The notes under the pieces were generated by a model that searched no databases, was not told the origin of the DNA, and saw nothing but the letters and a program-made list of their open reading frames with translations. A stretch of DNA of 48,542 nt from Alphaproteobacteria bacterium. GTDB lineage: Bacteria > Pseudomonadota > Alphaproteobacteria > Caulobacterales > Aquidulcibacteraceae. Shown piece after piece: positions 28,751 through 46,967 of this stretch (the first letter of the stretch is position 1; each line of letters opens with the position of its first letter). The DNA lies in assembly GCA_016124255.1 (NCBI GenBank), contig WGOB01000082.1, positions 1 to 48,542 of the forward strand, given 5' to 3'. The translations under genes were made by a program, and so were the position numbers.

Positions 28751-29287
28751 CTATCTCTCGATCACGCCGCATGCGATGCGGTCCCCGGCATCGCCGGACG
28801 GCTGGGACGTGTAGTCGTCAGCGCCGGAGTGGATGACGACGGCGGAGCCATCGTCGTCGAACAGCCCGGCATCTTCGAACCATCCGCCCTCCACCGACAA
28901 CCGGTCTACGAAGAATTCGGCGGACAGGTTTCCGCCCTCCGCGACTGAGATATTCGGCAAGTCACCCGGATGCGGGCCATCTTCGGTCAGGACGCCGTGC
29001 TTCTCCCCGGCGGAAAGATGGCCTCCAGCCGATTCGAAACCGCCCGCAGGATCACATCGTCCTGTCTCATGGATGTGAAAGCCGTAGTCTCCGGGTGCCA
29101 GACCTTGGACGCTCGCGGTCACGAGCATGACGCCCGAGTCCGTACCTCTGAACTCGACGGTACCCACGGCCTTGCCATGCCTGTCCTTCAACTCCGCGCT
29201 GGCCGAAGAACCGGCAGTCCCTCCCGCGACCGTCGGCGCGAACCCGACCAGGACCGCCCCCAATATCGCTGTCGACATTTTCAGCAT
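28751..29287 (-). CDS. sodC: periplasmic Cu/Zn superoxide dismutase
   Basis: A 178-residue exported enzyme converting superoxide to peroxide and oxygen. The N-terminus MLKMSTAILGAVLVGFAP is a Sec signal peptide. Metal ligands lie in GFHIHETG (copper His pair) and the Zn loop GGHLSAGEKHG; HPGDLPNI, VVIHSGADDY and the active-site Arg in GDAGDRIACGVI are all present. Cys pairs in GRCD and IACG can form the structural disulfide. The chosen ATG (29287) has GGAG 9 bases upstream; a second ATG is at 29278. An EcfG-type promoter (29386-29361) precedes it. Confidence 0.95.
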   Translation of the reverse strand: MLKMSTAILGAVLVGFAPTVAGGTAGSSASAELKDRHGKAVGTVEFRGTDSGVMLVTASVQGLAPGDYGFHIHETGRCDPAGGFESAGGHLSAGEKHGVLTEDGPHPGDLPNISVAEGGNLSAEFFVDRLSVEGGWFEDAGLFDDDGSAVVIHSGADDYTSQPSGDAGDRIACGVIER

Positions 29288-29360
29288 CACCTTGGTCTCC
29301 ACACTGGTTTCGGGGCGTCGCCCCCATGCCATGGGGGGCACGCCGTGCCTTCAGCGCGTC

Positions 29361-29386
29361 AACCGCAAGCCCGGATCGATTGTTCC
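29361..29386 (-). promoter_or_regulatory. EcfG-type promoter for sodC
   Basis: On the minus strand GGAAC (29386-29382), a 16-base spacer and CGGTT (29365-29361) lie about 75 bases before the start codon. The -35 is the exact EcfG consensus of alphaproteobacteria; the -10 differs slightly from CGTT and is identical to that of the catalase promoter. Confidence 0.6.
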
Positions 29387-29591
29387 AGGCGGCAGCCATT
29401 CCGTGACGGCATCCGATTGTCACAGCCTTCCCCCTTCTGTGGCCCTTTACACCCTCCAACGCCCAACCAAGTGGGAAGGTACGTTGGCTTCGACTGGCAA
29501 AGAACAGAAGGACCGACACGCAATCCGACGGGGAAGATCAGTGTCTCGCACTTGGCGAATACCCACTGCGCGGGAAGGAAGGACATCCGTC

Positions 29592-30155
29592 ATGGCCGAA
29601 AGGCTGAGCCCCATTCATCAGGAAATCGTCGATCAACTGCCTCTCCTGCGGGCGATGGCCAGGGCACTCACCCGCAATCCTCCGGAGGCAGACGACTTGG
29701 TTCAGGAAACGCTGACCAAGGCCATCACCCACATCGACAAGTTCGCGCCCGGCACGAACCTGCGGGCATGGCTCTGCACGATCGAGCGCAACACCTTTTA
29801 CACGAACTATCATCGCAAAGCGCGAGAACCACTTCTCGACGTCGAGCACATGCCGGGAGTCTGCGTCCAGGCGCCCCAGGAATGGAGCGCCAAGCTCCGC
29901 GCGGTCGACGGAGCAATGCGGGAGCTTCCTGTGGACCAGCGCGAAGCCCTGATGCTGGTCGGCGGCATCGGCATGAGCTACGAGGAGGCGGCGGAGGTCT
30001 GCGACTGCGCTCTCGGCACCATCAAGAGCCGGGTCAGCCGCGGCCGGACCGCGCTGCTCCAGCAATTGGATGCCACCGACGAAAGGGACTTCCTCGAGGA
30101 GCCGACCGCCCCTGCCGTACCGCATGTGATCGGCGGATCGCCCCTTCAGGAATGA
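29592..30155 (+). CDS. ecfG: EcfG-type extracytoplasmic function sigma factor (general stress response)
   Basis: A 187-residue ECF sigma factor of the EcfG (ECF15) class, master of the alphaproteobacterial general stress response. Region 2 reads ARALTRNPPEADDLVQETL and KFAPGTNLRAWLCTIERN. Region 4 reads LPVDQREALMLVGGIGMSYE and CALGTIKSRVSRGRTAL. The ATG at 29592 is preceded by GGAAGGAAGG. A C-terminal tail of about 20 residues is extra. The normal partners NepR and PhyR are not upstream; a NepR-like small gene lies downstream, convergent. No GGAAC-type site precedes this gene, so autoregulation is not evident. Confidence 0.9.
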   Translation: MAERLSPIHQEIVDQLPLLRAMARALTRNPPEADDLVQETLTKAITHIDKFAPGTNLRAWLCTIERNTFYTNYHRKAREPLLDVEHMPGVCVQAPQEWSAKLRAVDGAMRELPVDQREALMLVGGIGMSYEEAAEVCDCALGTIKSRVSRGRTALLQQLDATDERDFLEEPTAPAVPHVIGGSPLQE

Positions 30156-30192
30156 GTCGAAGCGTTCGAGGACGCGCCGGACGCGAATCCAC

Positions 30193-30432
30193 TCAATTGA
30201 AACGAGAGCGATCACCGGAAGGATGGCCATCGCCGTCATCCTTCCGAACCTTCTCGTACGCGTCGGCTATCCGGCGGCCCAGGCTGACCCACTCTTCGGG
30301 CAGTCGGTCTTCCGCCGCATAGTAGTGAAACAGCGCTTTGAGTTCTCGACTCAGCGGCTCCTCGGACCCGCCGTCGCTCCTGCCATCACGTGCATCGGAC
30401 GCCTGCTTGCCGCTGGTCCCTTTCTTCCTCAC
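30193..30432 (-). CDS. small NepR-like protein, candidate anti-sigma factor
   Basis: A 79-residue soluble protein. Its core LSRELKALFHYYAAEDRLPE and following EWVSLGRRI fit the NepR pattern: Leu-rich helix, acidic-Leu-Pro turn, aromatic, second helix, as in LR.LYD....EP.PDRF..LL. NepR proteins of about 60 residues hold EcfG inactive until phosphorylated PhyR removes them. GTG 30432 is chosen because GGGAGGTGG (30445-30437) stands at ideal distance; an upstream ATG at 30471 has no usable ribosome site. It is convergent with ecfG (37 bases apart) and downstream of the catalase gene on the same strand, unlike the usual nepR-ecfG operon. Alternative: an unrelated small stress protein. Confidence 0.55.
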   Translation of the reverse strand: MRKKGTSGKQASDARDGRSDGGSEEPLSRELKALFHYYAAEDRLPEEWVSLGRRIADAYEKVRKDDGDGHPSGDRSRFN

Positions 30433-30510
30433 GGCGCCACCTCCCGAGAGCCCGCGGGGGGTCTCACCCATCTCCGGCAGTTGGGGTCGACCCCCGCAGG
30501 CTGTGTCGTA

Positions 30511-32625
30511 TCACATCGCCACAATACGCGGCTCGCGCTCCCAGTGCCGGAGATCCCGGCAGGCGGCGACGTACGCGGCGATCTCCTCCTGGCTGCCAAG
30601 CGGCATGAAGGCGCCGTCCCGGCCATCAAACACGCCGGCCTTCTTGAGCAACGGCGTCGCAGCGTCGACGAAGCCGATGAACTTGAGGTGGGCGAACGCA
30701 TCCGCGACGAAGTCGCGTGCCTGCGGCTTGCCCGACAGCGCCTCGCCGCCCGCATCGGAAGTGACGAGGGCGATCGCGTCGAACAGCACGGAGGGTCCAC
30801 CGTCAATCTGATGGTCCGCGGCGATCCGCGTTCCGTCGCTGCCGTCGACCCCGCCGATGCACGGCGCCACAATCTCCAACGCCGCGCCTTCCTTCTCCAG
30901 TTCGGCGCGAAGACCCTCCAGGACCGAAACGTCGGCGCCGTCGGTGACCAGCACGCCGACCTTCCGTCCGGCCAGCGTTCGAGGTTCGTTGCGGATGATG
31001 CTCAAAGCCGGCGACTCCGGAAGATCATGTCGTGTCGGCACGGCCGCCTCGGCCGGTGGCGGCATGTCGTCCAAACGCAGCCCGTCGGCCACGTTCCGGG
31101 CCAGACCATCGTCGATGTTCAGCAGATGCGCGACCATTCGCGCCCTGATGGCCGGCGTCTGGACCTTGCTGAGTTCGAAGATCAGCGCGTCGGCGATATG
31201 CCCCCGCTCGGGTCCTGCCTGGCTGATGTAGAACTGCCGGGCCTGGCTGTAGTGGTCGGCGAAGGTCTCGGAACGCTCCCTGCGCGTCTCGCCCTGCTCG
31301 GCGCTGGCATAGGCGTCAAACCCACGCCCGGGATCCTCGCGAGGCCCCTCCTCCCAGGAGTTCGGTTGGTAATTCGCGCGGCCCTTAGGCACCCCGACCC
31401 GCATGTGGCCGTCGACCTGGAAGTTGTGCATCGGGCAGCGCGGCCGGTTCACCGGGATCTCCGTGAAGTTCGGACCGCCGAGGCGCTTCAGCTGCGTGTC
31501 GAGATAGGAGAAGTTGCGGCCCTGCAGAAGCGGATCGTTGGTGAAGTCGATGCCGGGCACGATGTTCTGGGTGCAGAACGCCACCTGTTCGGTTTCGGCG
31601 AAGAAGTTGCCGACCACCCGGTCGAGAACAAGGCGGCCGACACGACGCACCGGGACCTGCTCCTCGGGAATGATCTTGGTCGGGTCGAGGACGTCGAACT
31701 CGAACGCATCGGCGAACGCGTCGTCGAACAGCTGCAGACCAAGCTCCCATTCCGGGTAGTTTCCGGACCGGATCGCGTCCCACAGGTCACGCCGATGGAA
31801 GTCCGGATCGGCACCGTTCAGCTTCAGTGCCTCGTTCCACGCCACCGACTGCAGACCGAGCTTCGGCTTCCAGTGGAACTTGACGAAGGTCGAATTGCCC
31901 TCGGCGTTCACCAGCCGGAAGGTGTGAACCCCGAAGCCCTCCATGAACCGGAACGACCGCGGGATGGTTCGATCGGACATGATCCACATGACCATGTGCA
32001 TGCTTTCCGGCGTCAGCGAGATGAAGTCCCAGAAGTTGTCGTGTGCGGTCTGCGCCTGCGGAAAGCCGCGGTCGGGCTCCTGCTTGGCCGCATGGATCAG
32101 GTCGGGGAACTTGATCGCGTCCTGGATGAAGAATACCGGGATGTTGTTGCCGACCAGGTCCCAGTTGCCCTCGCGGGTGTAGAACTTGACCGCGAAGCCG
32201 CGCACGTCGCGGGCCAGGTCCGGCGAGCCCTTGTTGCCGGCCACTGTCGAGAACCGCACGAACACGTCGGTCCTCCGGCCCTTCTCCCGGAACGGGTCGG
32301 CCCGGGTGATCTCCGACAGGGATTCGTACGCCTCGAAGTATCCGTAGGCGCCCATGCCGCGGGCGTGCACCACCCGTTCCGGAATGCGCTCGTGGTCGAA
32401 GTGGAAGAGCTTCTCGCGGAGATGGAAGTCCTGGAGGACGGTCGGTCCGCGCGCCCCGACCTTGAGCGAATTCTGGTCGTCCGCCACGGGAATCCCCTGG
32501 GCCGTGGTCAGAGCCGGCTTGTCCGGACCGGCGGTCTGATGAAGTTCCCCGCCACTGCCGCTTGCCAGGGCCTGTTCGCCGATCCTGATGACATCGCGCG
32601 TTTTCGCGTGGTCCTGCTGTGCCAT
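30511..32625 (-). CDS. katE: large-subunit catalase (HPII/KatE type) with C-terminal DJ-1-like domain
   Basis: A 704-residue heme catalase of clade 2. The active-site His lies in [12 protein letters not shown], the distal Asn region in [12 protein letters not shown], and the proximal heme Tyr in [10 protein letters not shown]. After residue 560 comes the flavodoxin/DJ-1-like domain found in HPII ([20 protein letters not shown]), without a clear nucleophile Cys. The ATG at 32625 has GGAGAGG upstream. It is transcribed from an EcfG-type promoter at 32736-32711, fitting its role in stationary-phase and stress defence. The NepR-like gene follows 78 bases downstream. Confidence 0.95.
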
Positions 32626-32690
32626 GATCCTCTCCGCTATCGCTGGATCCCGGTCGTATCGACCGCAACGCGACGATGCCGCGCGCGCCC

Positions 32691-32722
32691 GGTGAACCGG
32701 TCCCCCGCGAAACCGGTTCACC
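32691..32722. terminator. 11-bp stem-loop between stress gene and catalase promoter
   Basis: GGTGAACCGGT (32691-32701) and its exact inverse ACCGGTTCACC (32712-32722) enclose 10 bases. On the minus strand it lies 36 bases after the stop of the gene at 32758, a plausible terminator, but without a T-run. It also overlaps the -10 of the EcfG-type catalase promoter, so it could instead be a protein-binding site. Confidence 0.5.
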
Positions 32723-32736
32723 CGCCAACATGTTCC
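32711..32736 (-). promoter_or_regulatory. EcfG-type promoter for the catalase gene
   Basis: GGAAC (32736-32732), a 16-base spacer and CGGTT (32715-32711) on the minus strand, about 85 bases before the catalase start. The layout is the same as at sodC. Confidence 0.65.
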
Positions 32737-32757
32737 GAGACTGTGGGGCGACCAGCG

Positions 32758-33351
32758 TCAGACCAGCGTCGTGCCGCCCCTTCCCAACGGATCGCCGACC
32801 ACCTCGGTCGGAACCGGATGGACATGGATGTCCGTTGCACCGTGGTTCACGAGGATCTCACGAGCCTTCGGCTCTTCGGCGGGCTCATGGAGCTTGATCC
32901 ACAGCACGATGCCGCCACCCCTGAGCTGTTCTCGCATGAACGCCTCGCGGTGCCGTCCGGCGGCACCCCCGACGCCCTCAACGGCGGCGGCAGCCCCTCC
33001 ACCCAGGACCGCGGCACCAACAACGGCCATCAAGGCCGTGCCGCCCGTAAGGATAGTGGCACCCGAGGCAATGAACGCTCCGACAATCCCGGCCATTCCG
33101 GCTGCCAGTGTGCGCGCCTGTCGGACGTCGGGATCGGTGACCACGCTCTGGCGTCCGGCTTCGGGGTCCTCCGCCAGCCTGCGGCTGGGCTGGTCGACGG
33201 TCTCGTCGCTCAAGAGATGGTGCTGAGCCAGCAGGCTCAATTCCGAACGGTCCCAGCCAGCGCCCGTGATGGCATCGACTGCACCCTCAAGCGCCTCAGT
33301 CGACGGCAGGACGCCTGCAATTTCCAGGGTCTGGGTCTCGGTCCGGGTCAT
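32758..33351 (-). CDS. glycine-zipper stress protein with YflT-like (GSP17M) domain
   Basis: A 197-residue protein of unknown function. Residues 10-42 (VLPSTEALEGAVDAITGAGW then LSLLA) resemble the general-stress-protein-17M/YflT fold, where an alpha-beta unit reads F....A..A...L...G. Residues 81-132 form a Gly/Ala-rich helical hairpin (glycine zipper) likely in the membrane. A C-terminal ferredoxin-like segment reads GGIVLWIKL and REILVNHGATDIHVH. The ATG at 33351 has GAGG just upstream. It follows the CBS gene by 47 bases on the same strand and is probably cotranscribed with it. Such proteins are common in stress regulons. Confidence 0.75.
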   Translation of the reverse strand: MTRTETQTLEIAGVLPSTEALEGAVDAITGAGWDRSELSLLAQHHLLSDETVDQPSRRLAEDPEAGRQSVVTDPDVRQARTLAAGMAGIVGAFIASGATILTGGTALMAVVGAAVLGGGAAAAVEGVGGAAGRHREAFMREQLRGGGIVLWIKLHEPAEEPKAREILVNHGATDIHVHPVPTEVVGDPLGRGGTTLV

Positions 33352-33398
33352 CTTCGCCTCGCTTCCGGTGCGTGGTGTCGCAGCCTCGCCCCCTCGGC

Positions 33399-34013
33399 TC
33401 ACAGCTTCGATTTCATCGCGGCTTCGCGCCGTTTCCGGAGAGTTGCGCGTGGCCGGTCGAGCGGTTCGTGTGCCGCACGGCCGTCCACATACAGGGTCGG
33501 ACCCTCCGCGTAAGTCACCAGAATGCCGAGTTCCGCCGACGCGGCCCGGCCCGGTGTCACTGCCAGCCGCCGGCGTATCAGCGCAGGGTCGACAGGCTCG
33601 CGCGGCCAATCCACCGGCAGGTCGTTTCCGTCCTTCGACAGCGCCAGAACGCCCACCATCAGATGGTCGCGATCGACCACGCAGAAATGCTCGATCTCCG
33701 TCTGCGCAACGATCGAAGCGCCGAGCGCGAGCGGATCGTCCTCGTACAGGAAGGGAACCGTCGGGAGCATGCAGTCACGTACCGACTGCCGTTCTTCAGC
33801 CGACCTCGTCGCAACTAGGCCAAGCGACAGGACGCCGACGATCGCGTCGCCGTCGACCACGGGCGCGAAGGACCGGCCCTGCTGCTGCATCCGCCGGAGC
33901 GCCTCGGTCATGGAGTGATCCGGATGCAGCACGACGTCCATGGGCCAAGTGACGTGATCTCCGACCAGCGGCCCGTCGGAGCCGTACCGCGAATTGCTTG
34001 GCAAAGGGCACAT
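33399..34013 (-). CDS. CBS-domain pair protein with basic C-terminal tail
   Basis: A 204-residue protein with two CBS motifs (about 18-75 and 80-130): MDVVLHPDHSMTEALRRM and FAPVVDGDAIVGVLSL, then VPFLYEDDPLALGASIV and FCVVDRDHLMVGVLAL. CBS pairs bind adenosine nucleotides or NADH and act as energy sensors. A C-terminal extension has LGILVTYAEGPTLYVDGRAA and ends in a basic stretch. The ATG at 34013 is used; the frame is open further upstream but without protein-like character. It is divergent from the flavin disulfide reductase. A GGAAC at 34051-34047 lacks a matching -10, so its promoter is unclear. Confidence 0.82.
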   Translation of the reverse strand: MCPLPSNSRYGSDGPLVGDHVTWPMDVVLHPDHSMTEALRRMQQQGRSFAPVVDGDAIVGVLSLGLVATRSAEERQSVRDCMLPTVPFLYEDDPLALGASIVAQTEIEHFCVVDRDHLMVGVLALSKDGNDLPVDWPREPVDPALIRRRLAVTPGRAASAELGILVTYAEGPTLYVDGRAAHEPLDRPRATLRKRREAAMKSKL

Positions 34014-34194
34014 GATAGCAACCTGAGATGTTTCAGCAGCCTCGCCGTTCCTGCCGATGTCGTCCCGTACCCCGGCGATTTCAGGGCATTTGGTCCGATC
34101 CACCGCCTGCACCGACCGATCCGGCGTCCTCGCGCCTTGCAACTGCCGGCCGGGGGCTTTGGTTGCCTACCGGCGGCGCATCTCCGCACCAGAT

Positions 34195-34220
34195 GGAACA
34201 TCTCGGCATCCGGACCCGTT
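34195..34220 (+). promoter_or_regulatory. EcfG-type promoter for the flavin disulfide reductase
   Basis: GGAAC (34195-34199), 17-base spacer and CGTT (34217-34220) on the plus strand, about 60 bases before the start at 34281. Both boxes match the EcfG consensus exactly. Confidence 0.7.
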
Positions 34221-34280
34221 GCTTGGGAGCATCAAGAAGTGCTCGGACCGGATTGTCCGGCGACCTCGAAGGAACACGAC

Positions 34281-35669
34281 ATGATCATTCACAACGACGT
34301 CCTGATCATCGGTGATGGACAGGCAGCGACCCCCCTCGCCCTCGCGCTCGCAAGAGCCTGCAAGTCGGTCACCGTCGCCGAGCGCAGGCAACTCGGCGGC
34401 TCCTGCGTGAACTTCGGATGCACGCCGACGAAGGCCGCGATCGCGTCGGCGCGCGTCGCCCATCTGGCACGCCACGCGGACGACTACGGGGTCCGGGTTG
34501 CCAGCGTGGACGTCGATTTCCCGGCGGTGCTCGACCGGGCCCGGCGCATCCGCGACCGCATGCGCGGCTCGCTTGCCGATGCGCTCGGCCCGTCGGACAA
34601 CCTGCGGCTGATCCACGGACACGCCCGTTTCCTCGGCCGCGATGGCGACGGGTTCCGGGTCCGCATCGGCGAAGATGATGTGATCAGCCCCGCGGTGGTC
34701 CTGGACACCGGCACCCGCTCGGTACTGCCGCCGATTGAAGGGCTCGATGCGGTCGACTTCCTCGATGCTGGAAACTGGCTCGAGCATTCCGATCTGCCCG
34801 GACACCTCGCCGTCCTCGGCGCCGGCTACATCGGCCTCGAGATGGCGCAGTTCTACAGGCGCATGGGGAGCCGTGTCACAGTCATCGACACGGCCAGCCA
34901 GGTCCTCGGTGACGAGGACGAGGACGTCGCCGACGCTCTTCGCAGGTCGCTGGAGGCGGAGGGCATCGCGTTCGCCCTGGAGGCGACCGTGACGACCGTG
35001 AGCGACCGGGGTGACAGTCTGCGCCTGTCATTGCAGCGGGAGTCGCCGTCTCAGCCGGCAACCACGCTGGACGTATCGGGCCTGTTCGTGGCCACCGGCC
35101 GGCAACCCAACACCGACGATCTGGGCCTCGATGCCGTCGGAGTCGCCACAGATTCCGCTGGATTCGTGGAAGCTGACGAACGCCTGCGCACCAGTGTTGA
35201 CGGCATCTGGGTCGCCGGTGACATCCGAGGCGGACCGATGTTCACGCACACCGCCTGGGACGACGGCAGGATCCTGCAGTCACAGCTGCTGGGCGATGCC
35301 CGGAACAGCACCCTGCGCACGGTGCCTTACGCAGTGTTCACCGATCCGCAGCTCGGCCGCGTCGGGGTCTCCGAGCGCGAGGCCCGCGCGACCGGTCTGA
35401 GGTTCATGGCCGGACGATTCGACATGGCCTCGAACGGCAAGGCCCAGGAGCAGGGAGACGAGGCCGGCTTCATCAAGGTCGTCGTGGACCCCGACAGAAA
35501 CACACTCCTCGGCGCCGCCGTGCTTTCCGCCGATGCCGCTGAGTTGGTCCACGTCTATGTCGACCTGGTCGACAAGGGCGCGTCAATCGACACTGTCCGT
35601 GATGCCGTCTACATCCACCCCACGCTGGCGGAAGCCGCGCAGTCGGCCCTGTCGACGGCGCGAAGCTGA
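34281..35669 (+). CDS. class I pyridine nucleotide-disulfide oxidoreductase (mercuric-reductase-like)
   Basis: A 462-residue FAD enzyme with the FAD fold DVLIIGDGQAATPLAL, redox-active pair GGSCVNFGCTPTKA, NAD(P) motif LAVLGAGYIGLEMAQ, second FAD motif DGIWVAGDI and the C-terminal dimerisation domain with the catalytic His in VYIHPTLAEA. It belongs with mercuric reductase/lipoamide dehydrogenase-like proteins but has no N-terminal metal-binding domain and no C-terminal Cys pair, so mercury reduction is unlikely. The first glycine motif is GDGQAA instead of GxGxxG. An EcfG-type promoter precedes it, so a thiol-redox role under stress is inferred. AAGGA is upstream of the ATG. Confidence 0.88.
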   Translation: MIIHNDVLIIGDGQAATPLALALARACKSVTVAERRQLGGSCVNFGCTPTKAAIASARVAHLARHADDYGVRVASVDVDFPAVLDRARRIRDRMRGSLADALGPSDNLRLIHGHARFLGRDGDGFRVRIGEDDVISPAVVLDTGTRSVLPPIEGLDAVDFLDAGNWLEHSDLPGHLAVLGAGYIGLEMAQFYRRMGSRVTVIDTASQVLGDEDEDVADALRRSLEAEGIAFALEATVTTVSDRGDSLRLSLQRESPSQPATTLDVSGLFVATGRQPNTDDLGLDAVGVATDSAGFVEADERLRTSVDGIWVAGDIRGGPMFTHTAWDDGRILQSQLLGDARNSTLRTVPYAVFTDPQLGRVGVSEREARATGLRFMAGRFDMASNGKAQEQGDEAGFIKVVVDPDRNTLLGAAVLSADAAELVHVYVDLVDKGASIDTVRDAVYIHPTLAEAAQSALSTARS

Positions 35670-35677
35670 AGGACACG

Positions 35678-35703
35678 GAACACTCCGGTGGCGAGATCCG
35701 TTT
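35678..35703 (+). promoter_or_regulatory. EcfG-type promoter for the CBS gene at 35744
   Basis: GGAAC (35678-35682), 17-base spacer and CGTT (35700-35703), beginning 9 bases after the stop of the reductase gene and 40 bases before the CBS start. It would add a second transcript to any read-through. Confidence 0.65.
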
Positions 35704-35743
35704 CGTCTCCGGGAACTCCAGCCCCCTCGAAGGAGACTCCGCC

Positions 35744-36178
35744 ATGAGGTCCGCCGGCGTGATGACAACCGACGTTGCTTACGTGTCGCCGGACGACACT
35801 CTGCGCCGGGCCGCCGAGAAGATGGACGACCTCAACGTCGGGGTGCTGCCCGTGTGCGACGCCAACGAACTGATCGGCGTCGTGACCGATCGCGACATCA
35901 CGATCCGATCGACCGCCGCCGGCCATGCACCAGACGAGACCGCCGTTTCCGAGGCAATGACCACCGACCTCAAATGGTGCCTGGAGGACGATCCGGTCGC
36001 GGATGTGGTGGCCGAGATGACCGATCTGCAGGTACGCCGCATGCCCGTGCTCGACGGCAACCGGCGGCTCGTGGGGATGATCTCACTCGGGGACCTGGCC
36101 ACGCGCTGCGAGGACGAATCCATCTCGATCGAACACGCCCTGGCCCGGATCTCCCAGCCCTCGCGTCCGGACCGCTGA
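35744..36178 (+). CDS. CBS-domain pair protein
   Basis: A 144-residue protein that is almost only a CBS pair: VMTTDVAYVSPDDTLRRAA then GVLPVCDANELIGVVTDRDI, and AMTTDLKWCLEDDPVADVV then RRMPVLDGNRRLVGMISLGD. The TDRDI segment is the typical nucleotide-binding motif of stand-alone CBS proteins. AAGGAG at 8-base spacing supports the ATG at 35744. It is clearly related to the CBS protein at 37001 and has its own EcfG-type promoter. A partner enzyme is not identifiable. Confidence 0.88.
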   Translation: MRSAGVMTTDVAYVSPDDTLRRAAEKMDDLNVGVLPVCDANELIGVVTDRDITIRSTAAGHAPDETAVSEAMTTDLKWCLEDDPVADVVAEMTDLQVRRMPVLDGNRRLVGMISLGDLATRCEDESISIEHALARISQPSRPDR

Positions 36179-36186
36179 GGCGTCGG

Positions 36187-39424: not shown

Positions 39425-39449
39425 GGAACAATCCACGCTGTCGTCCGTT
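39425..39449 (+). promoter_or_regulatory. EcfG-type promoter for the formate dehydrogenase operon
   Basis: GGAAC (39425-39429), 16-base spacer and CGTT (39446-39449), about 34 bases before the first gene of the operon. Both boxes are exact. It implies formate dehydrogenase is made as part of the general stress response. Confidence 0.65.
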
Positions 39450-39482
39450 GCGTCGGAGAAGGAAACCTTCGAGGTGTTCCCG

Positions 39483-39683
39483 ATGGCCGACGACGACGTG
39501 AAGACGGACAGGCGCAGCTTCCTCGGGATGGCCGCCGCAGCAGCAGCCGGTGGCGTTGCCGCGCCCCGGATGGCAGTTGGACCTGAAACTCCGCCGATAT
39601 CGGGCTCGGCGACGACGGCAGCGGCGGACACCTATCAGGAGACTGAGCACATCCGCGCTGCCTACCGGCGAATGCGGTTCTGA
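39483..39683 (+). CDS. small Tat-signal protein of formate dehydrogenase operons
   Basis: A 66-residue protein with a twin-arginine motif (KTDRRSFLGMAAAAAAGGVA) and a short mature part ending YRRMRF. Proteins of this kind (formate dehydrogenase region TAT target) occur just upstream of FDH alpha genes in many proteobacteria; their function is unknown. GAGGTG lies about 8 bases before ATG 39483. It ends 27 bases before the alpha subunit, so it is certainly in the same operon. Confidence 0.8.
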   Translation: MADDDVKTDRRSFLGMAAAAAAGGVAAPRMAVGPETPPISGSATTAAADTYQETEHIRAAYRRMRF

Positions 39684-39710
39684 GCGCGATCGAACGGAGG
39701 GAGAACCCGG

Positions 39711-42700
39711 ATGCTGCGGAGGAAGCCACATGACAATGGAACCGGTCGGAGCCGACTGCGGGCTGCCCGGCCCGACACGACGGTGGATCGGCGGAGGTTC
39801 CTGGCGAGTGCTGGCCTCGCCGCCGGCGGGTTGGCCGCGGTCGGGACCGCGGGCGGCGGGATGGTCCGCAAGGCTCGCGCCGAAGGCGCAAAGCCGTCGT
39901 CAGTCGAGCGGCGCAAGACCGTCTGCCCGTTCTGCGCCGTCGGCTGCTCGATCTGGGCAGAGGTCGAGAACGGCGTGTGGACCGGCCAGGAGCCCGTGTT
40001 CGAGAGCCCCGTCAACATGGGAACGCACTGCGCGAAGGGCGCTGCCACCCGCGAACTGGCCATCGGCCATCGGCGCCTCAAGTACCCCACCAAGTTGGAC
40101 AACGGTCGCTGGACGCGCATTTCGTGGGCGCAGGCGATCGACGAGATCGGCGACCGGATGCTGAAGATCCGGGAGGAGTCCGGCCCCGACTCCGTTTACT
40201 GGCTCGGCTCGGCGAAGTTCTCCAACGCGGCCGGCTACCTGTTCCGCAAGTTCGCGGCGATGTGGGGAACCAACAACGTCGACCACCAGGCCCGCATCTG
40301 CCACTCCACGACCGTCGCCGGCGTCGCCAACACCTTCGGCTACGGCGCGATGACCAACTCCTTCAACGATATCCACAATGCGAAGTCGATCTTCCTTCTC
40401 GGCGGCAATCCGGCCGAGGCCCACCCGGTCTCGATGCTGCACCTGCTCCGCGCCAAGGAGAACGGCGCCAAGCTGATCGTCGTCGATCCGCGGTTCACGC
40501 GCACGGCGGCCCATGCCGACGAATTCGTGCGCATCCGGACAGGGACCGACGTGGCATTCCTTTGGGGAGTGCTCTGGCACATCCTCGAGAACGGTTGGGA
40601 GGACGAGCAATTCCTGCGTCAACGGGTCTTCGGCTTCGATGAGATCCGCCGGGAGGTCGCGAAGTATCTGCCGGGCGAGGTCGAGGACATCACCGGAGTG
40701 CCGCGCGACCAGATCGAGCGCGTGGCCAGGATCGTGGCCGAGAACCGGCCAGGGACGCTGATCTGGTGCATGGGCCTGACCCAATCGACCATCGGCAACA
40801 GCAACACGCGGGCAGCATCGATCTTCCAGCTGGCGCTCGGCAACGTCGGCAAGTCGGGCGGCGGCACCAACATCTTCCGTGGCCACGACAATGTGCAGGG
40901 AGCGACCGACCTCGGCGTGCTGTGCCATACCCTGCCCGCCTACTATGGCCTTACCACCGGCGCCTGGAGGCACTGGGCCCGCGTCTGGGACGTCGACTAC
41001 GAGTGGCTGAAGGGACGCTTCGCCTCGCAGCAACTGATGGAGGCTGACGGCATCCCGGTGTCGCGCTGGTTCGACGGCGCGCTCGAGGCGAAAGAGAACA
41101 TCGAGCAACCGGACAACATCCGCGCCATGGTCTTCTGGGGCCACGCCCCCAACTCACAGTCGCGCGGACCCGACGTGAAGGCCGGCCTGGAGAAAGTCGA
41201 TCTGCTGGTGATCGTCGATCCCGTGCCGACCCTGTCATCGGTCCTCGGCGACCGGCAGGACGGCGTCTATCTGCTGCCGGCGGGCTCGACCATGGAGATC
41301 GCCGGGTCGGTGACCAACTCGCAGCGGGCGCTGCAATGGCGCGAGCAGGTCATGGCGCCGATGTTCGAGGCCAAGGGTGACTACGAGATCATGTATCTCT
41401 TCGCCCGAAAGTTCGGCTTCGCGGAGGAACTCTGTCGCCACATTGCGGTCGAGAACGACGAGCCGGTTGCCGAGGACATCCTGCGTGAGATCAACCGGGG
41501 TTCCTGGACGATCGGATACACCGGCCAGTCGCCCGAGCGCCTCAAGCTGCACATGGAGCACCAGGACAAGTTCGACAGCACCACCCTGTTGGGCATGAGC
41601 GGTCCGGTGAAGGGCGAGTACTACGGGCTGCCCTGGCCCTGCTGGGGGCCGCCGGAGATGCGGCATCCCGGGACCCGCAGCCTGTGGGACCAGTCGCTGC
41701 CGGTCGCCAAGGGAGGTCTGCCGTTCCGCGCGCGCTGGGGCGTCGAGCACGACGGACAGAACCTGCTGGCGGAAGGCTCCTACCCGGCCGGGTCCGAGAT
41801 CGAGGACGGGTATCCCGAGTTCACGTACGCGATCCTGCAGAAGCTGGGCTGGCATACCGAGTTGACGCCGGTGGAGCAGCTGGCGATCGCGGCGGTCGCC
41901 GCCGGATCCTTTCGACCTGAGATGTTGACGCTGACAGGCGCCGAGGCCGAGCGACGCCTGCGGAGCCTGCTCGACGACAATGCCGGGAAGACCCGTCCGT
42001 CGCGCAAATCCGGGCATCTCGACCTCGAGGACGGCGACGGGTCGACGGATGTCACGCCGGGCCCGACGGCCATCGAGCAGACGGACCCGACCGCACGGGA
42101 GGCGGCGCGAACCTACGAACGCTACACGCCGGAGGGCATCGAGAAGAAGAAGCCGGGGAGCGACACCGGCACCGGCAAGGCCGATCTCGGCGGCGGGGGC
42201 GAGGACGGCGGTCAGAAGATGAGCGACGGTGACAGCTTCGAAGGCAGGCTGCTTCGGGTGAACTGGAAGACCGATCTCTCCGGGGGCATTCAGCGCGTGG
42301 CGATCGCGCATGGCTGCGCGCCGTTCGGCAATGGCAAAGCCCGTGCCGTCGTATGGAACTTTCCCGACCCGGTGCCGATACACCGCGAGCCCCTGTACAC
42401 GCCTCGGCGCGATCTCGTGGCGAAGTACCGAACCTATGACGACCGTTTGAAGTATCGCGTGCCGACGCTCTACTGGTCGATCCAGAAGGAGGACTTCAGC
42501 AAGGAGTTTCCGCTGATCCTGACCACCGGGCGCCTGGTGGAGCATGAAGGCGGCGGCGACGAGACGCGCTCGAACATATGGCTCGCCGAGCTGCAGCAGG
42601 AGATGTTCGCTGAGGTCAACCCCGAGGACGCCCGTGCCCGAGGCATCGCGGACGGCGACATGATCTGGCTGCACACGCCCGAAGGGGCCCGAATCAAAGT

Positions 42701-42920
42701 GGCCGTGCAGAGCACGACGCGCGTCGGCCGCGGCACCGTCTTCATGCCTTTCCACTTCGGCGGCCACTACCAGGGCCGGGACCTGTCGGCGAAATATCCC
42801 GAGGGCACGGTCCCCTACGTGGTCGGCGAGGCCGCCAACACCGTCGCGACCTATGGCTATGACGTCGTGACCTTCATGCAGGAAACCAAGGGCACGCTCT
42901 GCCGGATCGAGCGGGCCTGA
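39711..42920 (+). CDS. fdhA: formate dehydrogenase alpha subunit (molybdopterin, Cys-type, Tat-exported)
   Basis: A 1069-residue catalytic subunit oxidising formate to CO2 in the periplasm. The Tat leader reads DRRRFLASAGLAAGG. The [4Fe-4S] ligands are Cys72, Cys75, Cys79 (CPFCAVGC) and Cys107 (THCAKGA). The Mo ligand is Cys197, next to His198 in RICHSTTVAG, so no selenocysteine is used. Molybdopterin-domain blocks include FLLGGNPAEAHPV and GLTQSTIGN; the C-terminal dinucleotide-binding domain holds LTTGRLVEHEGGG. Residues about 765-850 are an unusual Gly/Asp/Lys-rich insert without fold-like pattern. The beta and gamma subunits follow directly. Confidence 0.95.
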   Translation: MLRRKPHDNGTGRSRLRAARPDTTVDRRRFLASAGLAAGGLAAVGTAGGGMVRKARAEGAKPSSVERRKTVCPFCAVGCSIWAEVENGVWTGQEPVFESPVNMGTHCAKGAATRELAIGHRRLKYPTKLDNGRWTRISWAQAIDEIGDRMLKIREESGPDSVYWLGSAKFSNAAGYLFRKFAAMWGTNNVDHQARICHSTTVAGVANTFGYGAMTNSFNDIHNAKSIFLLGGNPAEAHPVSMLHLLRAKENGAKLIVVDPRFTRTAAHADEFVRIRTGTDVAFLWGVLWHILENGWEDEQFLRQRVFGFDEIRREVAKYLPGEVEDITGVPRDQIERVARIVAENRPGTLIWCMGLTQSTIGNSNTRAASIFQLALGNVGKSGGGTNIFRGHDNVQGATDLGVLCHTLPAYYGLTTGAWRHWARVWDVDYEWLKGRFASQQLMEADGIPVSRWFDGALEAKENIEQPDNIRAMVFWGHAPNSQSRGPDVKAGLEKVDLLVIVDPVPTLSSVLGDRQDGVYLLPAGSTMEIAGSVTNSQRALQWREQVMAPMFEAKGDYEIMYLFARKFGFAEELCRHIAVENDEPVAEDILREINRGSWTIGYTGQSPERLKLHMEHQDKFDSTTLLGMSGPVKGEYYGLPWPCWGPPEMRHPGTRSLWDQSLPVAKGGLPFRARWGVEHDGQNLLAEGSYPAGSEIEDGYPEFTYAILQKLGWHTELTPVEQLAIAAVAAGSFRPEMLTLTGAEAERRLRSLLDDNAGKTRPSRKSGHLDLEDGDGSTDVTPGPTAIEQTDPTAREAARTYERYTPEGIEKKKPGSDTGTGKADLGGGGEDGGQKMSDGDSFEGRLLRVNWKTDLSGGIQRVAIAHGCAPFGNGKARAVVWNFPDPVPIHREPLYTPRRDLVAKYRTYDDRLKYRVPTLYWSIQKEDFSKEFPLILTTGRLVEHEGGGDETRSNIWLAELQQEMFAEVNPEDARARGIADGDMIWLHTPEGARIKVAVQSTTRVGRGTVFMPFHFGGHYQGRDLSAKYPEGTVPYVVGEAANTVATYGYDVVTFMQETKGTLCRIERA

Positions 42921-42931
42921 GGAGGCTCGAA

Positions 42932-43531
42932 ATGGCCAGAATGAAATTCCTCTGCGATGCCGAACGCTGCATCGAGTGCAATGCCTGTACGACGGCCTGC
43001 AAGAACGAGCACGAGGTACCCTGGGGAATGCAGCGTCGCCGTCTGGTTACGGTCAACGACGGCGAGCCGGGCGAGAAGTCGCTCTCGGTGTCGTGCATGC
43101 ACTGCACCGACGCGCCGTGCATAGCGGTCTGCCCGGTGTCCTGCATCTACCAGACGGACACCGGTATCGTCCTACACGACAAGACCATCTGCATCGGCTG
43201 CGGCTACTGCTTCTACGCGTGCCCGTTCGGCGCACCTCAGTTCCCACGGAGCTCGAACTTCGGCACCCGCGGCAAGATGGACAAGTGCACCTTCTGCGCC
43301 GGCGGCCCGGAGACCGACGGATCCGAAGCCGAGTTCGGGAAGTACGGCCGGAACCGGGTTGCCGAGGGTAAATTGCCGCTCTGCGCCGAGGTCTGCTCGA
43401 CGCGCGCCCTGCTGGGCGGCGACGGCGACGTGGTCGCCGATATCTACAAGGAGCGCGTGATCCGCCGCGGCTATGGCAGCGGGGCCTGGGGCTGGTCGAC
43501 CGCCTACTACGGCCCCACCCATGATAGCTGA
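42932..43531 (+). CDS. fdhB: formate dehydrogenase beta subunit (four-cluster ferredoxin)
   Basis: A 199-residue electron-transfer subunit with four Cys groups: CIECNACTTACKNEH, CMHCTDAPCIAVCP, CIGCGYCFYACPFGAP, and a last group split between CTFC and LPLCAEVC. These would bind four [4Fe-4S] clusters. It has no C-terminal membrane helix, unlike E. coli FdnH, so it rests on the cytochrome b subunit. GGAGG 6 bases before ATG 42932 supports the start. It carries electrons from the alpha subunit to the gamma subunit. Confidence 0.95.
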   Translation: MARMKFLCDAERCIECNACTTACKNEHEVPWGMQRRRLVTVNDGEPGEKSLSVSCMHCTDAPCIAVCPVSCIYQTDTGIVLHDKTICIGCGYCFYACPFGAPQFPRSSNFGTRGKMDKCTFCAGGPETDGSEAEFGKYGRNRVAEGKLPLCAEVCSTRALLGGDGDVVADIYKERVIRRGYGSGAWGWSTAYYGPTHDS

Positions 43532-43545
43532 CGAAGGAGAACGCC

Positions 43546-44781
43546 ATGCTCCGTGCAGTCGCAATGGCCGTCACCGCCGCGCTGGTCGTCCTCCTGGTCT
43601 ACACGGTGTATCTCGGCACGATCTCGAGCGACCTGATTCTGCCCACGAACGGCGTCATCGGGAAGACGACGCCCGACGATGCCGCCGGGGGTGGCGCCGG
43701 CCAGCAAGCCCTGCGGGCCCGCACCGACTTGCAGCGCTGGCGAGCGGTCTCGGGGCCGAGCGCCAATCAGCCCGATCCCAAGGCCGACATCATGGGCAAC
43801 CCCGGCACCGAGGCCCGCCCCCCGGATCCGGCGACGATCACCGGCCCGGATGGCCGGTCGCTCGTTCGAGGCTGGCTGAGCCGCCAGCAAGGCCAGTCCG
43901 GCATCCTCCAGGAACCAAGGCGGGTACAGGGCCGCACGTCGCTGCCCGGGCCGGTGAAGGGAGTCTTCGTCCAACCCCAGGGGCGGCTCTGGCGCAGCAC
44001 GCACAACGGACCGATCGTATTCGGCGGCGCCTTCTACCTGATCGGCGTCGCCGCGTTGCTGGCCGCGTTCCTCTCGGTCCGCGGACGCGTTCCGATCAAG
44101 GACGGCTTCAGCGGCCAGACAGTGACGCGCTTCAGCGCGTTCGAGCGTGCGAACCACTGGATGTCTGCGGTCAGCTTCGTGCTGCTGGGACTGACCGGCC
44201 TTGTGCTGCTGTACGGCAAGCCGCTGATCCGGCCATGGCTCGGTGCCGACCGGTTCGGAAATCTGGCCGAGGGCAGCATGTGGCTCCACATGGCGCTCAT
44301 TGCGCCGTTCACGCTGGGCCTGATGACCATGCTCGCCACCTGGACCTGGCAGAACCTACCCACGCGCCTAGACTTCGAGTGGCTGCGGCAAGGCGGCGGC
44401 TTCATTCGCGATGACCAGCCGAACCCGCCGGCCGAACGGTTCAACGCCGGCCAGAAGCTGATCTTCTGGGCCGTGATCCTCGGCGGGCTGACCCTGGTCG
44501 CCAGCGGGCTCGCGATGATGTTCCCGTTCCAATGGGGCGGATATGGCAGCATGCAACTCGCCCAGAGCATCCACGCGATCGTCGCCCTCCTCATGATCGG
44601 TGTCATCTTCGGCCACATCTACATCGGCACGGTCGGCATGGTTGGAGCATTCGACGCCATGTGGAGCGGCCAGGTCGACCGCAATTGGGCGAAGGAGCAC
44701 CACAGCCGTTGGTACAACCGGCTCACGGCACCAGGCGATGGGGCCGGCAGCCGGCCGGAGGAACGGCGGAGGTCCGCATGA
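43546..44781 (+). CDS. fdhC: formate dehydrogenase gamma subunit (cytochrome b556)
   Basis: A 411-residue membrane anchor carrying heme b and the quinone site. After an N-terminal helix or signal (1-28) comes a long periplasmic, Pro/Gly-rich region to about residue 150, then four helices of the FdnI type. Heme-ligand candidates lie in FSAFERANHWMSAV, MWLHMALIAPF and SIHAIVALLMIGVIFGHIYIG. GTVGMVGAFDAMWSGQVD and WAKEHHSRW are family landmarks. The extended N-terminal region is longer than in E. coli FdnI (about 217 residues). The stop overlaps the next small gene by ATGA. Confidence 0.93.
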   Translation: MLRAVAMAVTAALVVLLVYTVYLGTISSDLILPTNGVIGKTTPDDAAGGGAGQQALRARTDLQRWRAVSGPSANQPDPKADIMGNPGTEARPPDPATITGPDGRSLVRGWLSRQQGQSGILQEPRRVQGRTSLPGPVKGVFVQPQGRLWRSTHNGPIVFGGAFYLIGVAALLAAFLSVRGRVPIKDGFSGQTVTRFSAFERANHWMSAVSFVLLGLTGLVLLYGKPLIRPWLGADRFGNLAEGSMWLHMALIAPFTLGLMTMLATWTWQNLPTRLDFEWLRQGGGFIRDDQPNPPAERFNAGQKLIFWAVILGGLTLVASGLAMMFPFQWGGYGSMQLAQSIHAIVALLMIGVIFGHIYIGTVGMVGAFDAMWSGQVDRNWAKEHHSRWYNRLTAPGDGAGSRPEERRRSA

Positions 44782-44915
44782 AGGGGTTCCTGTTCGGAAC
44801 CGCCGCCCTGGCCGCGCTTGCCGCGGCCACCGGCTTCATCTACGACCGGGTGGCGGTCGATTCCTCGCAGGACTTCAGGTCCAGCCCCTACGTCCACGTA
44901 TCGGGGCACGGCTGA
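44778..44915 (+). CDS. 45-residue single-helix protein of the formate dehydrogenase operon
   Basis: A small protein with one membrane helix or uncleaved signal (MKGFLFGTAALAALAAATGF) and a short polar tail ending YVHVSGHG. The ATG overlaps the gamma-subunit stop by four bases, and GGAGG (44768-44772) precedes it, so it is translated with the operon. No family was recognised. It may be a small accessory subunit of the enzyme (inference). Confidence 0.6.
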   Translation: MKGFLFGTAALAALAAATGFIYDRVAVDSSQDFRSSPYVHVSGHG

Positions 44916-44962
44916 GCCCGGGTGCCACACGCTGCCGCCCTCTGTCGTCGTCATCCTCTGCC

Positions 44963-45913
44963 TCAACGCCGGCTCCTGGCGGCATCGCCACGCGGCAACG
45001 TCAGGGAGAGGCCGACCCCGCCGCCGATCACGGCGAAGGTGACGGCCAGTGTCGCCCACACCGGAACCGCCACGAACTCGGAGGTGAAAATTTTGACCCC
45101 GATGATCACCAGCAGCAGCGACAACGCCGGCTTCAGGTAGCGGAAGCGCTCGATCACGCCATGCAGCGCGAAGTACAGAGCGCGCAGGCCGAGCAAGGCG
45201 AACACGTTCGACGTGAAGACGATGAACGGGTCTTGGGTGACACTGAAGATCGCCGGGATGGAGTCGATCGCGAACACCAGATCGGTCGCCTCGACGACGA
45301 CGAGGGTTGTCAGCAGTGGCGTCGCATAGATCTCACCGTCGCGCTTCACGAAGAAGCGGTGACCGTGAAACCGGCGGGTCACGTTCAGCTTGCGCTCGGC
45401 GAAGCGATAGACCCGGCTCTGCTTCGGATCCCGGGCATTGTCCAGGCCGCCGCGCAGGAACAGCCGCATGCCGCTCCAGACCAGCAGCGCTCCGAAGATC
45501 AGCATGACCCATTCATAGTTGCGGATCAGGGTGACGCCGACGGCGATGAACGCCCCGCGCATCAGCAGCGCCGACAACACCCCCCAGACCAGGACCGTGT
45601 GCCGTTCTTTGTCGGGGACCCGGAATGCCCGGAAGATGACGACGAACACAAAGATGTTGTCGAGACTGAGCCCCTTCTCGAGGGCGAAGCCCGTGAAGAA
45701 GCTCAACGCGGTATCGACATCCGCAACCACCGCCAAGCCGAGGCCGAACACCACGGCGGCCGCGACATAGCCGGCGGTCAGCATGAGGGACTTGCGGACA
45801 CCGATATGCTGTCCGCGAAACAGCAATAGATCGGTGACGAGCAGCGCGAGCACGATCGCAACGAACGCCGTCCAGGCGTACCACGGCGCTTCGAACTCTG
45901 CACCGGCGGACAT
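44963..45913 (-). CDS. TerC/Alx-family integral membrane protein
   Basis: A 316-residue membrane protein with about nine helices. The TerC landmarks are ALEKGLSLDNIFVFVVIFR, where the acidic residues of the metal site lie, and VVVEATDLVFAIDSIPAIFS, the second copy of the site. The LysE-like repeats and the loop RFFVKRDGEIYATPLL match the Alx/TerC subgroup, linked to manganese export, pH stress and tellurite resistance. It converges on the formate dehydrogenase operon. An EcfG-type promoter stands before it, back to back with that of the SDR-Ku operon. Confidence 0.92.
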   Translation of the reverse strand: MSAGAEFEAPWYAWTAFVAIVLALLVTDLLLFRGQHIGVRKSLMLTAGYVAAAVVFGLGLAVVADVDTALSFFTGFALEKGLSLDNIFVFVVIFRAFRVPDKERHTVLVWGVLSALLMRGAFIAVGVTLIRNYEWVMLIFGALLVWSGMRLFLRGGLDNARDPKQSRVYRFAERKLNVTRRFHGHRFFVKRDGEIYATPLLTTLVVVEATDLVFAIDSIPAIFSVTQDPFIVFTSNVFALLGLRALYFALHGVIERFRYLKPALSLLLVIIGVKIFTSEFVAVPVWATLAVTFAVIGGGVGLSLTLPRGDAARSRR

Positions 45914-45980
45914 TTCACTCCCGCTTGCCGCTGATCAAGGGCGATGGCGGCAAGACGAGACTGTCGGCCGCTGGGGATCG

Positions 45981-46005
45981 AACGCACGCCGGCACGGAAT
46001 GTTCC
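45981..46005 (-). promoter_or_regulatory. EcfG-type promoter for the TerC gene
   Basis: On the minus strand GGAAC (46005-46001), 16-base spacer and CGTT (45984-45981), about 68 bases before the start at 45913. Exact consensus in both boxes. Confidence 0.65.
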
Positions 46006-46044
46006 GAGCTTCTCGGGAACGATGCGGCCCGGCTGACTGCGGGC

Positions 46045-46069
46045 GGAACAAACTCAGGCGCGACCGGTT
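46045..46069 (+). promoter_or_regulatory. EcfG-type promoter for the SDR-Ku-LigD operon
   Basis: GGAAC (46045-46049), 16-base spacer and GGTT (46066-46069; CGGTT if read one base earlier), about 44 bases before the GTG start. The -10 form resembles those of sodC and katE with a spacer one base shorter. Confidence 0.5.
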
Positions 46070-46112
46070 GCAGTCTGCACATCGACCAACTTCATCCAAC
46101 GAGGAGCGTCGC

Positions 46113-46967
46113 GTGTCCGAGCAAGTCCAGCCACCGCAGACCCAACCGGTCCAGCCCGGCCGAGAGCACGATATGAACCCCCGTCCGGAGTTCGAGCCCC
46201 GCTATCCGGGAGTGGGCAAGCTCGCGGACCGTGTCGCGCTGATCACTGGCGGCGACAGCGGAATCGGTCGCGCCGTCGCAGTCGGGTTCGCGCGCGAAGG
46301 GGCGGACGTCGCCATCGTCTATCTCGAAGAGCATGCGGACGCCGAGGAGACGGCCGCCCTGGTAAAGGCCGAGGGGCAGCGCGCATTGCTGATCGCGGGC
46401 AACATCGGCGAAGAGTCGTTCTGCCACGACGCGGTCGGCAAGGTCGTGGAAGCCTTCGGCAGGCTCGACATTCTCGTGAACAACGCCGCCGAGCAGCATG
46501 AGGTCGCCAGCATCACCGAACTCAGCGGTGCCCAGCTTGAGCAGACCTTCCAGACCAACGTGTTCGGCTACTTTTACATGACGAAGGCTGCGCTGCCGCA
46601 CCTGCCCACGAACGCCGGAACCATCATCAACACCACCTCGATCACCGCCTATCACGGCTACCCGACGATGCTGGACTACAGCGCGACGCGCGGAGCGATC
46701 GTGGCGTTCACGCGCTCGCTCTCGACCGCTCTCGCCGATCGAGGCATCCGGGTGAACGCCGTGGCGCCCGGTCCGATCTGGACGCCGCTGATTCCCGCCT
46801 CGTTCGAGGCCGGGAAGGTCGCGCGGCACGGTGCCAGCTCGACGATGGGCCGTCCGGGACAGCCGGCGGAGGTCGCGTCCTGCTATCTGTTCCTGGCGAG
46901 CGGTGACGCATCCTACATGTCCGGCCAGGTGCTGCATCCGAACGGCGGACAGATCGTCGGCTCTTGA
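46113..46967 (+). CDS. short-chain dehydrogenase of the YghA/general-stress type
   Basis: A 284-residue SDR with an N-terminal extension of about 40 residues (PPQTQPVQPGREHDMNPRPE). The core has TGGDSGIGRAVA, AIVYLEEHADAEET, the NNAAEQHE motif and the ending SGQVLHPNGGQIVGS, matching the group of B. subtilis general stress SDRs and E. coli YghA. The catalytic Ser is in NTTSITAY, and the active-site Tyr reads YSATRGAIV, so the usual Lys of YxxxK is Arg here, an unusual change. GTG 46113 has GAGGAG at 6-base spacing. It leads the Ku-LigD genes and is preceded by an EcfG-type promoter. Confidence 0.88.
   Translation: MSEQVQPPQTQPVQPGREHDMNPRPEFEPRYPGVGKLADRVALITGGDSGIGRAVAVGFAREGADVAIVYLEEHADAEETAALVKAEGQRALLIAGNIGEESFCHDAVGKVVEAFGRLDILVNNAAEQHEVASITELSGAQLEQTFQTNVFGYFYMTKAALPHLPTNAGTIINTTSITAYHGYPTMLDYSATRGAIVAFTRSLSTALADRGIRVNAVAPGPIWTPLIPASFEAGKVARHGASSTMGRPGQPAEVASCYLFLASGDASYMSGQVLHPNGGQIVGS

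Follow-up and report, generated by a model that had tools for sequence, protein, structure and literature searches.

Extra copies of the EcfG-type sigma factor, a plasmid-borne EcfG2 with a catalase among its targets, additional NepR proteins and variation of the promoter -10 box are all in print (PMC3892343, PMC4814048, PMC7083833, PMC6599016, as far as the accessible parts of these papers go). The extra copies typically lie away from the phyR-nepR-ecfG locus (PMC3892343), and their purpose was called unexplained or elusive in the accessible text of two of these papers (PMC3892343, PMC4814048). Here we describe a 48,542-nucleotide contig (WGOB01000082.1, referred to as the window) of the alphaproteobacterial bin GCA_016124255.1, at which nine EcfG-type promoter sites share a 17-kb block with an EcfG-type sigma gene and a gene for a NepR-like small protein. 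This block is probably a stress-gene island with an EcfG/NepR-type switch of its own.

EcfG2 of Rhizobium etli resembles the window sigma factor in being a second, non-canonical EcfG beside the canonical one, borne on a plasmid and belonging to a sub-group found on plasmids; it also controls a catalase (katG) and has partly distinct targets (PMC3892343). On the other hand, no promoter motif was found for its targets, whether NepR controls it was described as unclear and, unlike in the window, no compact target island is described in the accessible text. The extra NepR paralog of Methylobacterium extorquens, MexAM1_META2p0735, has an EcfG-type promoter and is a negative regulator, similar to what we propose here, whereas its partner there is PhyR, and binding to an EcfG was not observed in the part of the paper available (PMC4814048); the window gene lies behind katE, beside the gene of a divergent sigma factor, and is known from sequence. 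In Sphingopyxis granuli TFA, EcfG1 and EcfG2 likewise occur with NepR1 and NepR2 and the -10 boxes are variable, whereas ecfG1, ecfG2, nepR2 and phyR2 stand in one locus of the usual type, as described in the accessible text (PMC7083833). Among the open-licence papers listed on EcfG and horizontal transfer, islands, plasmids and stress resistance, clustered targets or mobile elements, taken at the level of titles and abstract beginnings, no self-contained EcfG-NepR island is described.

The likeness in gene content extends to plasmid pTM1 of Tistrella mobilis, whose stretches at 336-361 and 672-676 kb hold a sigma gene (69% identity), a NepR-like gene, Ku-LigD, SDR and katE genes, with sites before Ku, SDR and a CBS-katE pair. 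They differ from the window in gene order and in the distance of about 12 kb from the sigma to the NepR-like gene, and no formate dehydrogenase, sodC or TerC is annotated in the stretches seen.

Nine EcfG-type sites and the genes behind them

Both strands were scanned for GGAAC-N16/17-SGTT (S being C or G), with the same pattern reversed as the control. The window holds nine exact matches, all within 29361-46069 and none before 29361. The original prediction, which was made by eye from the letters, had placed nine such sites here in the same orientations and none in the first 28 kb, and on both counts the scan agreed with it; eight sites lie at the coordinates it listed, while the one before the CBS gene at 35744 begins at 35677 instead of 35678. 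All nine are intergenic, as judged with a codon-usage gene finder written for this analysis, and precede a start codon on the same strand by 19-85 bp. Dinucleotide shuffles of the window gave a mean of 0.97 matches and a maximum of 8, with none of 100 reaching nine. For a span of 16.7 kb, the rest of the bin predicts 0.48 sites (0.35-0.5 overall), and in 20,000 uniform random placements such a span held seven sites at most, so that nine was never reached. With their boxes shortly before starts, outside genes and properly oriented, and with a -10 of GGTT in four of the nine, these sites are well supported as EcfG-type promoter candidates marking a coherent set of stress genes, and they likely precede nine transcription units (protein families are Pfam assignments unless stated).

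The first unit is sodC, for a Cu/Zn superoxide dismutase (28751-29287, minus strand; Sod_Cu, 1.4e-36). Its open reading frame extends to 29341, and site 1 (29361-29386, minus strand, GGAAC-N17-GGTT) lies 73 bp before the likely start, ATG 29287, or 19 bp before GTG 29341. Site 2 (32711-32736, minus strand, GGAAC-N17-GGTT) stands 85 bp before the gene of a large katE-type catalase (30511-32625, minus strand; Catalase, 2.2e-181). The same catalase, at 81% identity over 693 residues, is encoded in a related locus of a Rhodospirillaceae bin (L070), which has a site at the same place (13923-13947, before katE). As the gene of the 92-residue NepR-like protein (30193-30471, minus strand) follows katE by 39 bp on the same strand, the katE site would drive it too.

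Further along, site 3 (34195-34220, plus strand, GGAAC-N17-CGTT) precedes a flavin disulfide reductase gene (34281-35669, plus strand; Pyr_redox_2, 5.8e-55) by 60 bp, and site 4 (35677-35702, plus strand, GGAAC-N17-CGTT) precedes the CBS-domain gene at 35744-36178 (plus strand) by 41 bp. Two divergent sites follow: site 5 (36822-36847, minus strand, GGAAC-N17-GGTT), 26 bp before the gene of a membrane protein with no Pfam family (36187-36795, minus strand), and site 6 (36892-36917, plus strand, GGAAC-N17-CGTT), 83 bp before a likely CBS-cupin-SYLF operon (37001-38682, plus strand; CBS 37001-37435, cupin 37502-37843, SYLF/Ysc84 37930-38682), in which an upstream scan found no further site before the cupin or the SYLF gene. 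Site 7 (39425-39449, plus strand, GGAAC-N16-CGTT) lies 33 bp before a formate dehydrogenase operon (39483-44781, plus strand) that encodes a small twin-arginine translocation (TAT) protein, called by reading the sequence (39483-39683), the alpha (39711-42920) and beta (42932-43531) subunits and a cytochrome b (43546-44781). The last two sites are again divergent: site 8 (45981-46005, minus strand, GGAAC-N16-CGTT) lies 67 bp before the gene of a TerC-family membrane protein (44963-45913, minus strand; TerC, 4.5e-50), and site 9 (46045-46069, plus strand, GGAAC-N16-GGTT) lies 43-46 bp before an SDR-Ku-LigD unit (plus strand; adh_short_C2, Ku and LigD_N), with SDR at 46113-46967, Ku at 47053-47985 and the N-terminal part of LigD from 47986 to the contig end at 48542. 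Three genes of the block have no site, namely one for a protein with no Pfam family (32758-33351, minus strand), which adjoins katE in L070 too, one for a CBS-domain protein (33399-34013, minus strand) and one for an ExoD-family membrane protein (38729-39337, minus strand).

Run by pattern, the comparison with the genome gave 0.54 sites per kb in the span, which makes it about 19 times as dense in sites as the remaining bin (95 sites in 3.32 Mb); this comparison is made less secure by the composition of the contig, which differs from that of the bin. The whole bin (3.34 Mb) has 104 matches against 70 for the reversed control, so many of the matches elsewhere must be background. We classified 98 of the 104, the other six lying less than 150 bp from the end of a stretch or in repeated letters; 46 fell in genes and 52 were intergenic, and for 40 of the latter a start on the same strand followed within 400 bp. 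Only three of 31 classified control sites were intergenic, these 31 being the first 30 listed together with others on fetched stretches (for most of the remaining 39 of the 70, no stretch was fetched). This intergenic excess points to a real regulon beyond the window, with up to forty further sites.

The original prediction had also considered the concentration of targets around a sigma gene unusual. This is right only in part: targets tend to gather around ecfG genes in general, and the window stands at the upper end of that tendency. In 80 named loci (up to 20 kb) around EcfG-like genes, the pattern matched 248 times and the control 52 times; 20 of the loci have at least five sites (maximum ten), and in the 75 loci of the distance profile, which left out five, density drops to 0.04 per kb at 9-10 kb, from 0.60 beside the sigma gene. 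Another contig of the bin, C92, is denser than the window cluster and also weighs against the claim; it has five sites in 2.2 kb (2172-4406), each 30-57 bp before a small gene of a kind typical of stress responses (for a glycine-zipper protein, two DUF1328 proteins, a DUF883 protein and a CsbD-like protein), and no match to the window sigma factor.

The sigma factor and the NepR-like protein

The sigma gene (29592-30155, plus strand) encodes a protein with Sigma70_r2, Sigma70_r4_2 and PhyR_sigma2 domains, all above the Pfam cut-offs. In a tree of 42 proteins (35 from the 80 named loci and seven others), it groups, with starred support, with the copies of L070, three Tistrella-genus genomes, genome G218 and locus L072, and this clade falls inside the EcfG-like rows, the outgroup being only two long rows. 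It is 72% identical to the L070 copy, 68-69% to those of the Tistrella genus (69% to that of pTM1) and 58% to that of G218; two of the genomes (G093 and G221) were called Tistrella by inference, as they belong to the same genus as G318, whose match has pTM1 coordinates. Among the matches listed, none from 36 genomes of its genus or family exceeded 50% over most of the protein, with one partial match of 55% over 73 residues (G014), whereas at least five of 384 other genomes of the class did.

The only Pfam NepR match of the bin is on contig C41, next to phyR and to an ecfG whose product shares 45% identity with the window sigma factor. This canonical locus carries two divergent sites of its own, and its EcfG falls among those of Hyphomonas, Caulobacteraceae and Hellea, a grouping less well supported (90/50). 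Together with DNA matches between genomes of the same order and named Caulobacteraceae and Hellea loci, the tree suggests a place near Caulobacterales for the bin. No PhyR was found among the 44 predicted genes of the window contig. The original statement that the EcfG gene itself lies inside the cluster was thus not upheld, and the window gene was rejected as the EcfG of the bin; judged by its clade and by its locus, it is a divergent EcfG paralog, not the main copy. From the presence of the sites, it is predicted that it would direct transcription from GGAAC-N16/17-CGTT.

The small protein behind katE is encoded convergently with the sigma gene. Its homolog in L070 is also behind katE (tblastn, E 2e-4, among seven stretches). 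Aligned together against a NepR profile of 105 sequences, none of which came from L070, L071 or L072, the two proteins matched with a probability of 87.7 and P 3.4e-6 (hhalign; 0 of 200 column shuffles). With the two-row profile, a member turned up on the sigma gene's own contig in six of seven genomes (the bin, the genome of L070, three of one genus and G375), a count in which three genomes are of one genus and two were used to build the profile. In the four that were outside profile building (G442, which is Tistrella mobilis KA081020-065, G221, G093 and G375), E values were 2e-6 to 5.4e-5, and the member lay about 12 kb from the sigma gene in the first three and 6 kb in G375. The resulting six-member family matched NepR, over a core of about 30 residues, with a probability of 94.1 and P 1.3e-7 (0 of 200 shuffles), and the four new members alone with 90.4 and P 1.4e-6. 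Searches with the window protein alone gave E <0.01 in only two of 384 other genomes of the class, both weak, and a plasmid search with the small proteins gave nothing useful. It is likely that the window protein is NepR-like, with predicted binding to EcfG and PhyR; we do not call it NepR, because both Pfam and a direct hidden Markov model (HMM) miss it.

Pfam NepR has no match in G093, G221, G442 or the genome of L070, where the NepR-like profile does match, and the first three carry EcfG-type sigma genes. In G375, whose locus was read on L072, a sigma gene of the wider clade stands with PhyR and an HWE kinase (by Pfam), so that the NepR-like gene there is part of what looks like a main stress-response locus. 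Within L072 (the L269 locus), the sigma gene, PhyR, HWE kinase and the NepR-like open reading frame occupy 7237-16574, and all three strict sites in 20 kb read GGAACA-N16-GGTT.

Sites near this sigma clade tend to have GGTT as their -10 box. Counted over eight clade stretches, which take in G218 and two other Tistrella-genus stretches, 12 of the 17 distinct sites had it, compared with 46 of 234 for the remaining named loci (Fisher, 2e-5); for clade sites standing before a gene, the count was 8 of 11 (3e-4 against the same 46 of 234), and in a narrower set of five clade stretches 10 of 13. In the window, an A follows GGAAC in eight of nine sites, compared with 10 of 43 other intergenic sites of the bin. 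Spacer length was no different (N17 in six of nine against 19 of 43).

Related loci and the origin of the contig

On pTM1, the stretch at 336-361 kb encodes, among others, cold-shock proteins, LigD, Ku, SDR, the NepR-like protein (annotated as hypothetical), topoisomerase IB and the sigma factor. Six strict sites fall in 336-352 kb, against none for the control; one is in a gene and five are intergenic, before a hypothetical gene and a divergent DUF2934 gene, before Ku-LigD and a divergent hypothetical gene, and before SDR. A further site precedes a pyrroloquinoline quinone (PQQ) dehydrogenase gene near the sigma gene, and katE lies behind a CBS gene, the pair having one site. In L070 the row holds sodC, the sigma gene followed by a DUF892 gene, the NepR-like gene, katE with its site, the neighbor of the 32758 type and SYLF (27% identity).

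The membrane protein at 36187-36795 has relatives on Rhodopseudomonas, Pantoea and Erwinia plasmids. The nearest of these (68%) is on the conjugative Rhodopseudomonas plasmid pBAL398.3 (L311), with no site before it. Three sites were found at 5878-10339 of that plasmid, before genes for an isoaspartate methyltransferase, a four-helix copper protein and a DUF6496 protein, one of them just 7 bp before the annotated start, and no sigma gene is annotated in the 30.6 kb seen. On a Pantoea ananatis plasmid (L312), genes for a formate dehydrogenase and for a general stress protein are close to that of the relative.

Several results weigh against an island with its own switch. No site was detected within 250 bp upstream of the window sigma gene, even with one mismatch. 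The small protein has no match to Pfam PF18557 even at E 10, and the NepR HMM (HMMER) misses it. Five of the nine sites have the ordinary CGTT, readable by any EcfG; the GGTT share of the window does not differ reliably from that of other loci (p 0.09), and both GGTT and the A after GGAAC were chosen as features after looking. G218 has a related sigma gene with no clear NepR-like partner and no cluster, its sole strict site being inside the sigma gene and its best NepR-like hit, on another contig, scoring 0.28. Furthermore, the fetched stretches around katE relatives in G045, G050 and G011 (L279-L281) and around membrane-protein relatives in four genomes (L314-L317) hold no strict site. Lastly, Pfam revealed no PhyR, integrase, relaxase, transfer or replication gene in the contig, for which 44 genes are predicted, and the host is uncertain.

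This last point concerns the composition of the contig. Its two halves correlate with the bin in tetranucleotide frequencies at only 0.61-0.68, against 0.73-0.91 for all 20 other 18-kb stretches examined; they correlate with each other at 0.70, and their summed frequency difference is 0.13 to each other against 0.25-0.28 to the bin. Either the contig was acquired, as a replicon or an island, or it belongs to another organism and was mis-binned. Besides its foreign composition, a decayed and frame-shifted transposase remnant (28029-28370, plus strand), which we take to be of the IS3 type, borders the stress genes on the left, in the gap that separates sodC from the last of the left-hand genes; window positions 27918-28316 match rve_2 just over its cut-off (1.1e-4), rve and rve_3 fall below theirs, and the tail runs on in another frame. 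The right end of the block is cut by the contig end at 48542. When its left (19.6 kb) and right (19.8 kb) parts were compared with 40 relatives at the DNA level, only scattered gene-level matches were seen. The scan for tRNA genes found none, and the Rfam scan gave nothing useful.

Left of the block, two alpha/beta hydrolase genes in opposite orientations (3706-4538 and 22856-23688) share 93% DNA identity, with a third copy (76%) on contig C71, and 16548-21185 encodes a MASE1-PAS histidine kinase and three response regulators, two of LuxR type and none PhyR-like.

It is quite possible that the contig was mis-binned from a Rhodospirillales or Tistrella-like organism, in which the sigma and NepR-like genes may be the resident switch, with nothing mobile or paralogous about them. 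The outlying composition would fit this, as would the nearest sigma relatives, which come from a Rhodospirillaceae bin and Tistrella, the lack of Pfam NepR matches in the three Tistrella-genus genomes and that of L070, and G375, at which the wider-clade sigma gene is in what looks like a main locus. Against it, Tistrella mobilis KA081020-065 has its sigma gene on plasmid pTM1 and not on the chromosome, and the reported contamination of the bin is 1.04%, although both fit with mis-binning too. If the contig is mis-binned, the comparisons with C41 and with the other sites of the bin set one organism against another; the results on the nine sites themselves (number, position and local density) hold regardless.

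Alternatively, the sites could belong to the general stress response of the host and be read by its canonical EcfG, the paralog being incidental or minor. The canonical locus on C41 does have sites of its own, most window sites carry the standard CGTT, the C92 cluster exists with no sigma gene found, and minor EcfG copies are described in the accessible part of the Methylobacterium work (PMC4814048). We consider this rather unlikely, as the base after GGAAC, even if picked after looking, sets the island sites apart from other intergenic sites of the bin, relatives of the window sigma gene on other replicons sit with similar targets, and the contig may not share a cell with C41.

Less likely still is the absence of any relationship between NepR and the small protein behind katE; the Pfam and HMMER misses and G218, with no clear copy, speak for it, and the profile-profile match with its shuffle control and the co-location with the sigma clade speak against it. 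Finally, chance matches in GC-rich DNA were rejected as the source of the nine sites and deserve hardly any credence, for although nearly half of the classified bin matches are in genes and a 16.5-kb Pantoea (gammaproteobacterial) plasmid stretch shows a background that is not nil (two strict matches against one control), all nine sites are intergenic and in place where at most half a site was expected, beyond any shuffle or random placement.

A proposed switch and what it would mean

For a stress-gene island with its own switch, we propose the following. When there is no stress, the sigma factor would be bound by the NepR-like protein; once stress sets in, a PhyR encoded off the contig would remove the NepR-like protein, and the freed sigma factor could then read the nine sites. 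With its gene in the katE unit, the brake would rise with the response and provide negative feedback. The package may also move between alphaproteobacterial lineages, since a related sigma gene, NepR-like gene and targets occur together on pTM1 and, in part, in the Rhodospirillaceae bin. That it is a transferable general-stress regulon, with its own EcfG, a NepR-like brake outside Pfam and promoters fitting the sigma clade (the GGTT-type -10), is a tentative idea that we hold with more doubt than belief. If true, a recipient would gain a ready-wired stress response partly insulated from its own EcfG.

An extra EcfG together with a likely brake and nine target units in one compact cluster makes the role of extra EcfG copies testable. 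As the NepR-like family is outside the current Pfam profile, some genomes scored as NepR-free may not be so. Perhaps more generally, the locus suggests that a stress regulon may pass from one lineage to another ready-wired, as a package.

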